This document shows positions 3,355-26,098 of a stretch of 34,740 nt of DNA, in pieces (positions within the stretch are counted from its first letter, which is position 1; each line of letters begins with the position of its first letter). Location of the stretch: positions 1-34,740 of the forward strand of contig JAEUWB010000049.1 of assembly GCA_016786595.1 (NCBI GenBank), written 5' to 3'. Source of the stretch: a bacterium. GTDB lineage: Bacteria > Bdellovibrionota_C > UBA2361 > SZUA-149 > JAEUWB01. The notes below the pieces were generated by a model. The model was not told the DNA's origin, ran no database searches, and saw nothing but the letters and a program-made list of their open reading frames with translations. The translations under genes were made by a program, and so were the position numbers.

Positions 3355-3399
3355 CCAGTGGATAGTTATTTGTGAATTTTCCAAATAACTATCCACTGG
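3355..3399 (+). promoter_or_regulatory. Perfect 18-bp inverted repeat adjoining the SD
   Basis: CCAGTGGATAGTTATTTG (3355-3372) and its exact complement (3382-3399) flank a 9-nt loop, TGAATTTTC. The right arm ends inside the Shine-Dalgarno sequence GGAGG (3398-3402) of the gene starting at 3408, so the folded RNA would pull two of its bases into the stem. It could be a translational control hairpin, a protein-binding operator or a MITE-like remnant; there is no T-run after it. Confidence 0.65.
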
Positions 3400-3407
3400 A
3401 GGTAACA

Positions 3408-3881
3408 ATGGATCAACAAGAACTCAATGGAAGGCTCCTTCGCGGGGCAATGACAAATGACATCGGGATGATGGAAGCTGCTCTAGGTGACGGAGCTAAT
3501 CTCGCGGCCGTTCGCGAGATAGATGGTGCTAGCGTGCTGATGCTAGCGCAAACCTTAAAGGCAATTGACTTTCTTCTTTCTCAACCAGGGATAGGCGAAG
3601 TCATTAATGCGGTAAACCGTTTTGGCGCTAACGCCATCATGGTTCATCTTCGAGGTGGCCGAGCGAAGATTATCCAGGCTTTGCTTGATGCTGGAACTGA
3701 CCCAGAATACATTGCGCCAGGAATGATCGAAGGTATGCCTGGACGAACTGCGTTGAGTATGACCAGTGTCCCGATTGGCAGAGCGCCCATACGGCCTTAT
3801 CCCAATAGCGCAAGAATTGCCAGACTACTCCAAACGGCGATTGCAAAAAAGACGGCTGAGCGAGAGGCTGCTCTGGTCTAA
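3408..3881 (+). CDS. Ankyrin-repeat-like protein
   Basis: This 157-residue cytosolic protein contains degenerate ankyrin units. LLRGAMTNDIGMMEAALGDGANL (residues ~9-31) is followed by DGASVLMLAQTLKAIDFLLSQPG and then FGANAIMVHLRGGRAKIIQALLDAGTDPEY, which shows the 'GanA.m......iiqaLLdaGtDp' pattern of the repeat. GRTALSMTSV begins another. Ankyrin repeats bind other proteins, so this is probably an adaptor or inhibitor; no partner is encoded beside it. The ATG at 3408 was chosen for the strong GGAGG six bases upstream; the upstream in-frame start at 3372 would lie in the hairpin. It is monocistronic by position and probably controlled by the hairpin. Confidence 0.7.
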   Translation: MDQQELNGRLLRGAMTNDIGMMEAALGDGANLAAVREIDGASVLMLAQTLKAIDFLLSQPGIGEVINAVNRFGANAIMVHLRGGRAKIIQALLDAGTDPEYIAPGMIEGMPGRTALSMTSVPIGRAPIRPYPNSARIARLLQTAIAKKTAEREAALV

Positions 3882-23494: not shown

Positions 23495-24280
23495 ATGAAA
23501 ATCTATCTCGCCTATTTCGCTAAATTTTTAAAGGCACGCTTGTCTTACAAGTTTGATTTCTTTGCTGGTATTATTGCCAACGCCATCTCTACAGGTTCGA
23601 GCTTGATTTTTATTTTACTTCTACTCGATGGGACGCGAGTGACAAATCTCCAAGGTTGGACACAACCGGAAGTACTTTTTATTTACGGTTATTCGATGAT
23701 CCCGCTAGCGATCTTTGGACTGCTTGCGCCTAATCTCTATCAATTTGGCGATAAGTATATCATTCAAGGTCAGTTTGACCGAGTGCTTTTGCGACCACTG
23801 TCAACACTTCCGCAGGTGCTCTTTGAGTCATTTAATCTGGATGCGCTCGGATCGCTAACAGTTGGGATTATTACTACAAGTATTGCGGCGTCTAGACTTA
23901 ATTTGGAGTTTGCATTTCTCGATATCGTTTGGTTTGCAATCAGTACCATTGCTGCAGCAATTATTTTACTTTCTTTTTTTGTAAGTTTGGCATCAATTGC
24001 TTTTCATTTTGAAGACAGACTTGGTCTGGCAGCGCCGATGTATAATTTAATTGTTTTTGGGCGCTATCCGATCACGATTTTTAGCAAGTTGATTCAGTTT
24101 ATCTTGCAGTGGGTAGTGCCCTTTGCCTTTGTAGCGTTTTACCCGGCAACGCACTTTTTTACTGAACGCGGATTTGGATTTTATACCTATCTCAGTCCCG
24201 TTGTTGCGCTTGCAACTGCCACGCTCACATACTTTGTCTGGAATTTTGGCGTCTCGAGGTACGCTTCAACAGGAAATTAA
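23495..24280 (+). CDS. ABC-2 exporter permease (COG3694-like)
   Basis: A 261-residue inner-membrane protein with six predicted helices: FFAGIIANAISTGSSLIFILLLL, VLFIYGYSMIPLAIFGLLAPNLY, LDALGSLTVGIITTSIAAS, IVWFAISTIAAAIILLSFFVSLASIAFHF, and two near the end including WVVPFAFVAFYPATHFF. IIQGQFDRVLLRPLSTLPQVLFESFNLD is the loop with 'G.fDr.LlRPl' found in the COG3694 partners of COG4586/4587 exporters. It completes the transporter encoded by the two genes before it. GGGGGG (23485-23490) serves as ribosome-binding site. Its stop codon TAA (24278-24280) is the first part of the terminator hairpin. Confidence 0.88.
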   Translation: MKIYLAYFAKFLKARLSYKFDFFAGIIANAISTGSSLIFILLLLDGTRVTNLQGWTQPEVLFIYGYSMIPLAIFGLLAPNLYQFGDKYIIQGQFDRVLLRPLSTLPQVLFESFNLDALGSLTVGIITTSIAASRLNLEFAFLDIVWFAISTIAAAIILLSFFVSLASIAFHFEDRLGLAAPMYNLIVFGRYPITIFSKLIQFILQWVVPFAFVAFYPATHFFTERGFGFYTYLSPVVALATATLTYFVWNFGVSRYASTGN

Positions 24281-24338
24281 AATATTTTCAGAATCTTAGC
24301 TTGAGCGCAACGAATGCTAAGTTCTAGAAAATATTTTA
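24278..24338 (+). terminator. Large terminator hairpin of the ABC operon
   Basis: TAAAATATTTTC (24278-24289) pairs perfectly with GAAAATATTTTA (24327-24338). A further CTTAGC/GCTAAG pair (24295-24300, 24316-24321) lies inside, separated by 5-nt internal loops, and the apical loop is 15 nt. The stop codon of the permease is part of the outer arm. It is near-symmetric and may act in both directions. Confidence 0.65.
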
Positions 24339-24358
24339 TCCTGAGCGAGTCGAAGGAT
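24338..24358. repeat. REP-like element
   Basis: ATCCTGAGCGAGTCGAAGGAT, with ATCCT/AGGAT ends, matches a short repeat family widely scattered between bacterial genes. Related pieces lie at 16523-16541 and 16653-16687. Confidence 0.5.
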
Positions 24359-24378: not shown

Positions 24379-24437
24379 ACGCTGGGGTTTAGCGTTAGCA
24401 AAACCCCAGCGTATTCTCGGTTACATCGACAAGTCTT
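24379..24437. repeat. 59-bp direct repeat, left copy
   Basis: It is identical to 25326-25384 except for one base (24413 A, 25360 T). The first 34 bp are a perfect 12-bp hairpin (24379-24390 with 24401-24412, 10-nt loop). The rest equals the last codons of the minus-strand gene ending at 25368 (DLSM and stop). The left copy is not joined to that gene, so it looks like a duplicated 3' end. Confidence 0.9.
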
Positions 24438-24600
24438 TTAGCATCTGGGCAGCTAAAATTGATTTTATTCCAGAATTTTTTCCGAAGTGACGCACCAAGC
24501 AAACCAATCCGGACGATAATAAATAGGTAAATGCGTAACTAATGTAGCACGAGGATATGGCTAAAGCTTCATCAGCAGATCTGGCCAAGTTAGAGCAATT

Positions 24601-24639
24601 TACGATTCTATGTAGCAAATAGTGAGTTGCTAAATCGTA
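24601..24639. promoter_or_regulatory. Inverted-repeat candidate operator before the DUF4160 gene
   Basis: TACGATT (24601-24607) with AATCGTA (24633-24639), and TAGCAA (24613-24618) with TTGCTA (24627-24632), form a 13-bp inverted repeat interrupted only by CTATG on the left. It ends 6 bp before the start at 24646. It could be the binding site of the HTH protein encoded at 24849, or an RNA hairpin over the start region. Confidence 0.55.
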
Positions 24640-24645
24640 TCAATA

Positions 24646-24852
24646 ATGGTAACATATATGGGGAAGCATAGAAGAGGTGGATATATTTTTCTGACGTGGA
24701 TTGGAGACCACAGACCTAGGCACGTGCATATTTATAAGAACAATAAATTGGTGGCGAAATGGGATTTGGAGAATGGAAAAGTAATGAAAGGTAAAATTTC
24801 TAAAGAAATACGGAGTCACCTTGAAGCCTTGCTGGATGAGGGGCGTCTATGA
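24646..24852 (+). CDS. DUF4160-family small protein
   Basis: The 68-residue protein fits DUF4160: an N-terminal strand RGGYIFLTWIGDH, then RPRHVHIYKNNKLVAKWDLENGKV, with the His-x-His of 'RHVHIY' that is nearly invariant in the family, and a C-terminal helix ISKEIRSHLEALLDEGRL. DUF4160 genes are usually paired with a small DUF2442 gene in compact two-gene modules considered likely toxin-antitoxin-like, but their biochemistry is not established. The pair here overlaps by ATGA. It starts at 24646 or at the in-frame ATG at 24658; neither has a clear ribosome-binding site, and the first lies right after the inverted repeat. Confidence 0.8.
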   Translation: MVTYMGKHRRGGYIFLTWIGDHRPRHVHIYKNNKLVAKWDLENGKVMKGKISKEIRSHLEALLDEGRL

Positions 24853-25313
24853 AAATTAAAAGAATTGTTACAGATAATCGAAAGAAAATTTTCCTGTTAG
24901 ATTGCGCGAATCATCGCTATTCATTTCCATATGCGAAGCTTCACTTGAAGCCCAAAGTCAGTGACCCAATAGCCTCGGTCATAATCGACTCCGAGCTAGG
25001 CTCAGAGGCTTTTACTTATCGCCTAAAAAGTGGGCGAGAAGATTCTATACATCTAGATGCTGTTTTGGAGTATAATAAAGACCCAGAGTATTTAAGGGAG
25101 CAAATACTATACAAGCTTAGTCTATGCGCGCAGCGTCAACTCAAGAAAACCCAACTAACTAAGCGAGAGATAGTCCGCCGGCTGAAAACGTCCCCTACGC
25201 AACTTTATCGTTTACTTGACCAAACTTTTTACGGAAAAACGATTGACCAAATGCTACGGTTGCTACACGTGCTTGGCACGAGCGTTGATATCGTTACTAA
25301 AAAAGCTGCATAA
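24849..25313 (+). CDS. DUF2442-like protein fused to a helix-turn-helix domain
   Basis: A 154-residue protein of two parts. Residues ~1-90 begin MKIKRIVTDNRKKIFLLDCANHRYSFPYAKL and continue with alternating strands as in DUF2442 partners of DUF4160. Residues ~95-154 form a helix-turn-helix of the XRE/Cro kind: QLKKTQLTKREIVRRLKTSPTQLYRLLD, where LTKREIVRRLKTSPTQLYRLL covers the two HTH helices, followed by YGKTIDQMLRLLHVLGTSVDIV. The fusion suggests that it binds its own promoter as an antitoxin-type repressor; the inverted repeat at 24601-24639 is the natural candidate site. It overlaps the DUF4160 gene by 4 bp and ends 13 bp before the right 59-bp repeat, whose hairpin followed by TTTT can end the transcript. 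Confidence 0.75.
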   Translation: MKIKRIVTDNRKKIFLLDCANHRYSFPYAKLHLKPKVSDPIASVIIDSELGSEAFTYRLKSGREDSIHLDAVLEYNKDPEYLREQILYKLSLCAQRQLKKTQLTKREIVRRLKTSPTQLYRLLDQTFYGKTIDQMLRLLHVLGTSVDIVTKKAA

Positions 25314-25325
25314 AATACGTAAAAG

Positions 25326-25384
25326 ACGCTGGGGTTTAGCGTTAGCAAAACCCCAGCGTTTTCTCGGTTACATCGACAAGTCTT
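25326..25384. repeat. 59-bp direct repeat, right copy, with bidirectional terminator
   Basis: This copy holds the 12-bp hairpin (25326-25337 with 25348-25359) between the convergent ends of the HTH gene (25313) and the minus-strand gene (25368). It is followed by TTTTCTC rightward and CTTTTACGTATTTT leftward, so it can terminate both. The rest is the true 3' end of the minus-strand gene. It lies 947 bp from the left copy. Confidence 0.9.
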
Positions 25385-25862
25385 CCGGGATGTCCGGCGG
25401 TAGTTTAGCACCTTCACTTGCTGCTCGAAGAAAGACTATCATCAATGCGAGCTTCGCTTTGATGAAAGCACGGTGCGCTTTGCCTTCTTCCGTGTCTGCT
25501 GGATTGTCGTCGCTGAATTTCGTGATCACCTCAGATGATTTTCTGAAAGATTCTAGGTAAAATGCAGCGTCTTCTGGGCTTTGGTTCTCAAGGCATTGAG
25601 TCAAAAAAGCAATGTATGCTTTCCGATCAGTGCTAAGTATCAGGCCCTCATTGGCAGATACTTTCAACTGCGCATCAAATGCCGTCTTGGCGTTGCTATA
25701 CTCTGTCTTGTAATCACTGAGTTGGTTTTCCAGTTGTCTATTTTGTATGCTCATGGATATTGCGAAAAAGCATGCAATAACTCCGATGCACCACAACATG
25801 TTCACAGTGACTAAAGAGGTCGATCTCGACGAAGTTTTTGGGTTTTGAGGTTTGCTCCCCAT
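25368..25862 (-). CDS. Membrane-anchored coiled-coil protein, unknown
   Basis: A 164-residue protein with a short polar N-terminus, one membrane segment (NMLWCIGVIACFFAISMSI, residues ~24-42) and a following coiled coil (QNRQLENQLSDYKTEYSNAKTAFDAQLKV). A helical domain, FLTQCLENQSPEDAAFYLESF, comes next, and the end is KLPPDIPEDLSM. It is probably a type II inner-membrane protein with a periplasmic domain. The start at 25862 (MGSKPQNP) has GGAAAA before it; the 63 residues upstream in the same frame look non-coding. Its last 5 codons lie in the right 59-bp repeat; a copy of them sits 947 bp further downstream. No family is recognised. Confidence 0.65.
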   Translation of the reverse strand: MGSKPQNPKTSSRSTSLVTVNMLWCIGVIACFFAISMSIQNRQLENQLSDYKTEYSNAKTAFDAQLKVSANEGLILSTDRKAYIAFLTQCLENQSPEDAAFYLESFRKSSEVITKFSDDNPADTEEGKAHRAFIKAKLALMIVFLRAASEGAKLPPDIPEDLSM

Positions 25863-26098
25863 TATTTTTTCCAACGAAGACCGTCTAGGTAAGAAATGTG
25901 ACTGCCTTCGCAACATTGATAAAATCTTGCAAAGACAGCTAAAACCTTGACTAACGCTACTACCCAGTAGTCGGCCTAGGTAGCACATTTGAGCAGTAAA
26001 AACAATCAAGCCAAGGCGACTTGAAGCTGTAGTTTTCTTGCCAGCGGGCAAGTATTTATTTTGTCCTGTAAAATCAGTTTACTAAGCACTCGGTCGAA
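25863..26098. other. Gene-free stretch upstream of two divergent genes
   Basis: With the promoter and leader to the right, about 470 bp lie between the divergent starts at 25862 and 26332. The left 235 bp have no feature that I can support beyond AT-rich stretches that may carry the promoter of the minus-strand gene. Confidence 0.3.

Follow-up and report, generated by a model that had tools for sequence, protein, structure and literature searches.

The locus considered here raises the question of whether two small genes enclosed by a near-perfect direct repeat form a mobile cassette, or instead a toxin-antitoxin (TA) module around which a single event has left a scar. The locus lies in a stretch of bacterial DNA of 34,740 nucleotides, referred to as the window, and an earlier note on this DNA had read it as a possible mobile cassette, TA-like or defensive. 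The site is delimited by the two copies of the repeat and by the genes on either side:

23495..24280, plus strand: left neighbour, an ABC2_membrane_6 transporter gene (Pfam E 8.5e-44)
24379-24437, no strand assigned: left copy of the 59-bp direct repeat, with a terminator-type hairpin, the final codons of gene X and its stop
25326-25384, no strand assigned: right copy of the 59-bp repeat, with a terminator-type hairpin between convergent genes and the gene X 3' end
25368..26051, minus strand: gene X, the right neighbour, a 227-aa ORF with an uncertain start and no family above cut-off

As the earlier note had described, the copies are identical at 58 of 59 positions (one base is different), lie 947 bp apart start to start and enclose two overlapping genes. 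The pair is unique in the 34.7-kb window at lengths of at least 32 nt and high identity, a search of another 54 kb from this genome brought up no comparable direct-repeat pair, and the repeat has only two direct copies in the whole genome. Each copy contains a hairpin of some 12 bp with 2 more bp inside it, whose folding energy lies between -25 and -28 kcal/mol and whose z-score relative to shuffled sequences is about -6 to -7, and the right copy holds the gene X stop codon (25368-25370) together with the last codons on the minus strand, which bears out the proposal that the repeat carries both a hairpin and the 3' end of the neighbouring gene. The right copy is placed where the pair, ending at 25313, and gene X, ending at 25368, converge, and its hairpin there could terminate transcription both ways; a consensus terminator scan called it on the minus strand only. 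Rfam returned no structured-RNA match. The association of a terminator-type hairpin with a gene end had been taken as insertion-like, a reading that is supported in the wider form of an insertion- or duplication-like structure.

The two genes between the copies can be described as follows:

24658..24852, plus strand: putative DUF4160 (DhiT-type) toxin, 64 aa, starting MGKHRRGG (PF13711, homologue alignment, AlphaFold2)
24849..25313, plus strand: putative antitoxin, 154 aa, with a beta-rich N-terminal domain and a C-terminal XRE-like HTH
25128..25295, plus strand: HTH region of the antitoxin, residues 94-149 (sub-threshold HTH_37, family matches, Foldseek)

The toxin gene comes first and overlaps its partner by 4 bp (ATGA, 24849-24852), which confirms that the two genes are coupled. 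No integrase accompanies them, as had been noted, and the interval between the repeats contains no other genes. The toxin candidate matches PF13711 (DUF4160) with 31.7 bits against a Pfam cut-off of 23. Its start is likely at 24658, and not at 24646, because its homologues begin with MGKIRRGGY or similar. AlphaFold2 models of both proteins, built on shallow input alignments, are fairly confident, with a mean pLDDT of 85.8 for the toxin and 91.2 for the antitoxin. A fold search with the toxin gave nothing significant, and Foldseek with the antitoxin gave mainly HTH-type matches, to XRE regulators and HipB, with weak E-values. In parallel, HTH_37 is matched by the window antitoxin at an E-value of 1.2e-4, below cut-off, and by seven of the eight members of the antitoxin family at E up to 0.1. 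Collectively, these matches support the HTH assigned to the second protein. The other half of the earlier assignment, DUF2442, was not supported by sequence: Pfam gave no DUF2442 match in the window antitoxin or its seven relatives, and the probability in hhalign was below 1% against two DUF2442 alignments built from DUF2442 matches in this class.

Relatives of the second protein were found in GTDB genomes (n=7), from delta-proteobacterial, Oligoflexia, Bdellovibrionales, Halobacteriovorax, Acidobacteria and Bacteroidetes MAGs, and a search of the class added an eighth, L020. Their second protein is 41-55% identical to that of the window. A DUF4160-type gene lies 5' of the partner gene wherever upstream sequence is covered (L012 begins at a contig end), and the 4-nt overlap recurs in L008, L010, L013, L014 and L020. 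A whole-genome search across 46 genomes of the phylum detected the module in four, each belonging to a different family, and this patchy distribution suggests horizontal spread or repeated loss. The module proteins were not found on the plasmids searched, nor was the antitoxin found in IMG/VR. Around the other modules no such repeats are seen, save in L010, which has repeats of its own. In this Acidobacteria MAG (L010:4726-6203), two TA-like pairs stand in tandem directly upstream of intI, each followed by a 55-nt repeat (95%) that includes the last codons of the second gene and that, by eye, has no canonical attC core.

The region upstream of the toxin gene contains two further features:

24590..24631, no strand assigned: copy of a dispersed palindrome of about 46 bp, covering most of the operator proposed earlier
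24638..24651, plus strand: putative operator TATC-N6-GGTA, with position and spacing common to homologous modules

The interrupted inverted repeat at 24601-24639, through which the HTH protein had been proposed to repress its own genes, does exist, but its role as an operator specific to the module was rejected, as it lies mostly within the dispersed palindrome. Indeed, BLAST against the same genome gave about 20 matches to the 24590-24631 segment, 77-96% identical, and the ten inspected in detail align to a palindrome, TTAGAGCAATTCACGATTC...GAATAGTGAATTGCTCTAA. The exact 39-bp pattern of 24601-24639 occurs once in the genome because its last bases fall outside the palindrome. A better operator candidate, judging from the upstream regions of homologous modules, is TATC-N6-GGTA. 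The pattern TAYC-N6-KKTA is found no more than 35 nt from the toxin start in six of seven modules, with L011 just beyond, and in at most two of seven shuffled upstream regions, a figure that is optimistic as the pattern was picked after inspection. In a palindrome test with a fixed spacer and no fixed motif, 1 of 3000 shuffles reached the observed sum; in this unbiased test the window copy is an imperfect palindrome, with three of six arm pairs. L020, which was outside the set used to choose the motif, has TACT-ATAGGT-GGTA, with the same spacing and one mismatch.

Other repeats were observed in the window. Another dispersed palindromic repeat follows the ABC2 gene (24278-24349), and elsewhere in the genome (G000:C39, L071:1468-1672) it occurs as a 99-nt tandem duplication (97%). 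A perfect 18-bp inverted repeat with a 9-nt loop (3355-3399) surrounds the start of the ORF 3372-3881.

The surroundings of the module were compared among relatives. The ABC2 gene is conserved in the order, being matched in 10 order relatives besides the genome itself, and in two of them (G013 and G009) it lies near the same BshA-type glycosyltransferase gene, with different content between. The module thus appears, from this gene order, to be in a variable interval between the conserved ABC2 gene and the BshA-type glycosyltransferase gene, and the differing content makes the interval plausible for gain and loss. In G013 the gap between the two genes is about 210 bp and contains a run of N, on account of which it was set aside as an empty site. 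The right flank had no match in 37 relatives from other families, and gene X provides no anchor for an empty-site comparison because its only match in the class outside its own genome is a weak one (E 0.005).

The reading that we favour, and consider fairly probable, is a type II TA module of the DUF4160/DhiT kind, with the repeat as the scar of one recent event that duplicated the gene X end and the terminator. The repeat, the hairpin, the gene overlap, the DUF4160 match, the conserved pairing, the conserved operator pattern and the patchy distribution are the observations on which it is based; toxicity, neutralisation, repression and the mechanism of duplication are what we infer. In particular, the beta-rich N-terminal half of the antitoxin would probably block the toxin, and its HTH would repress the operon at TATC-N6-GGTA (24638-24651). 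Copies of the gene X end and terminator would have come to flank the module, with recombination or illegitimate repair of incoming DNA as the simplest route. Against this reading stand a partner with no detectable DUF2442 and the imperfect operator copy in the window.

An alternative that keeps the TA pair in place is the ectopic duplication of just the 59-bp terminator and gene end upstream of a pre-existing pair, as could happen through template switching at the hairpin. The strength of the hairpin agrees with such an event, as does the segment 24438-24645, which is dissimilar to gene X and its upstream region, so that there is no remnant of a larger duplication; a larger tandem duplication with a decayed gene X was rejected on the same ground, the similarity being not above that of shuffles. 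However, no other dispersed duplication of this kind occurs in the 89 kb inspected, and we regard this origin as unlikely, if the best placed of the alternatives.

Somewhat less likely still is an integrative cassette, that is, a non-autonomous 947-bp circle that comprised the TA pair with a single repeat copy and entered the gene X 3' end site-specifically by way of a tyrosine recombinase that acted in trans or was lost. The near identity of the 59-bp copies and their place at the 3' end of a gene recall att-bounded islands, the distribution of the module is patchy and the genome has four tyrosine-recombinase genes; help from a trans-acting recombinase is possible but unsupported. Besides the lack of an integrase between the repeats, this origin is opposed by the confinement of the repeat to this site and by the other copies of the module, which have no such repeats. 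Searches for the hairpin pattern of the repeat in GTDB contigs, for its 20-bp inner core in IMG/VR and for the 59-mer in plasmid and phage collections gave no match. In these collections no other cassette bounded by the same repeat, for which the earlier note had suggested a search, came to light, and a role of the repeat as a recurrent end of mobile cassettes is not supported. A more specific proposal, in which an integrase-free TA circle of about 0.95 kb enters and leaves at a terminator hairpin and gene end, rebuilding the gene end and helped in trans by a recombinase such as the IntI or Xer proteins of the genome, is very unlikely. If the 59-bp repeat were an attachment site, it would define a hitch-hiking TA element of very small size with terminators as its target.

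Insertion of the pair as an integron gene cassette, with the IntI of this genome acting at a secondary site, is highly improbable. The genome does contain an integron integrase (419.5 bits, G000:C60:89579-90520) and a chromosomal integron in which intI is followed by cassettes with attC-like sites (L023:9553-15001; L051:1-~13700; G000:C60), these limits of the array being provisional; an example of such a site is L023:12939-13037. In addition, intI of the Acidobacteria MAG is separated from a homologous pair by the length of two TA pairs, and some local attC sites have a right end that, by eye, resembles GCGTTAGC of the repeat. Yet no attC was found beside the module in strict or relaxed scans that recover several sites of the array, and a 59-bp duplication is not expected from cassette insertion. 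Least probable of all is an assembly artefact joining unrelated segments at the repeat: the sequence comes from a draft assembly in 60 contigs and 59 bp is near common k-mer sizes, but the copies differ at one base, the module is intact, and its G+C and third-position G+C match the surroundings.

All in all, the locus is a probable TA module that bears the scar of a single event, mobility being only a candidate reading, although a unique scar and a rare mobile cassette may both fit the single site in this genome. Of the TA-like mobile cassette first proposed, the TA-like pair has stood, with DUF4160 above cut-off and a conserved toxin-first pairing, and recurrent mobility is not supported, the repeat having been found at one site only.

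Pairs of the DUF4160/DUF2442 kind, recognised only recently, have been validated as type II TA systems (PMC8198452, PMC12724237). In Dickeya, the DUF4160 protein of DhiTA inhibits the growth of both Dickeya and E. coli, co-expression of the partner relieves this effect, and the DhiTA complex represses its own promoter (PMC8198452). In Thermus, a plasmid DUF4160/DUF2442 module raises plasmid persistence, and the plasmid without the second gene gave no transformants (PMC12724237). The window module has the same order as DhiTA of Dickeya dadantii 3937, with a DUF4160 toxin gene followed by an overlapping antitoxin gene, and the DUF4160 gene is also first and the partner second in the Thermus thermophilus module. 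The window partner, however, is a 154-aa protein with an HTH and undetectable DUF2442, in contrast to the DUF2442 partner of DhiTA and to that of the plasmid-borne Thermus thermophilus module, a 92-aa DUF2442. A further protein of interest is NE0471 (PDB 2AUW), which we take to be a DUF2442-plus-HTH protein: it is matched weakly by a DUF2442 profile (residues 9-86 of 170, E 0.074) and is not matched by the profile of the window antitoxin's family.

A closer comparison is offered by the same genome, where a DUF4160-like/DUF2442 pair on G000:C58 (~23.9-24.4 kb; DUF4160 assigned by eye) is likewise toxin-first and adjoins a copy of the dispersed palindrome, but has a short canonical DUF2442 partner (78.5 bits) and is without surrounding direct repeats. 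At L069:15750-17699 (G000:C58), inverted repeats of about 140 bp, 86-88% complementary, enclose a DUF4160-like/DUF2442 pair together with another gene; these repeats are made of successive palindromes that include the dispersed one of about 46 bp.

PADLOC and PHROGs gave no match and hence no defence-system or phage-family assignment. DUF4160 and a short toxin-first overlap are found in the window module and a DUF2442 partner was not detected, and because the partner fails the DUF2442 test the module is reported, on sequence grounds, as a variant of the DhiTA type and is not classed as a DhiTA member. Its mode of action is expected to be the same as that of the DUF4160/DUF2442 systems. The module would thereby represent a scattered family in which DUF4160 toxins are paired with an HTH-bearing antitoxin of undetectable DUF2442, and for which a candidate operator is now supplied.
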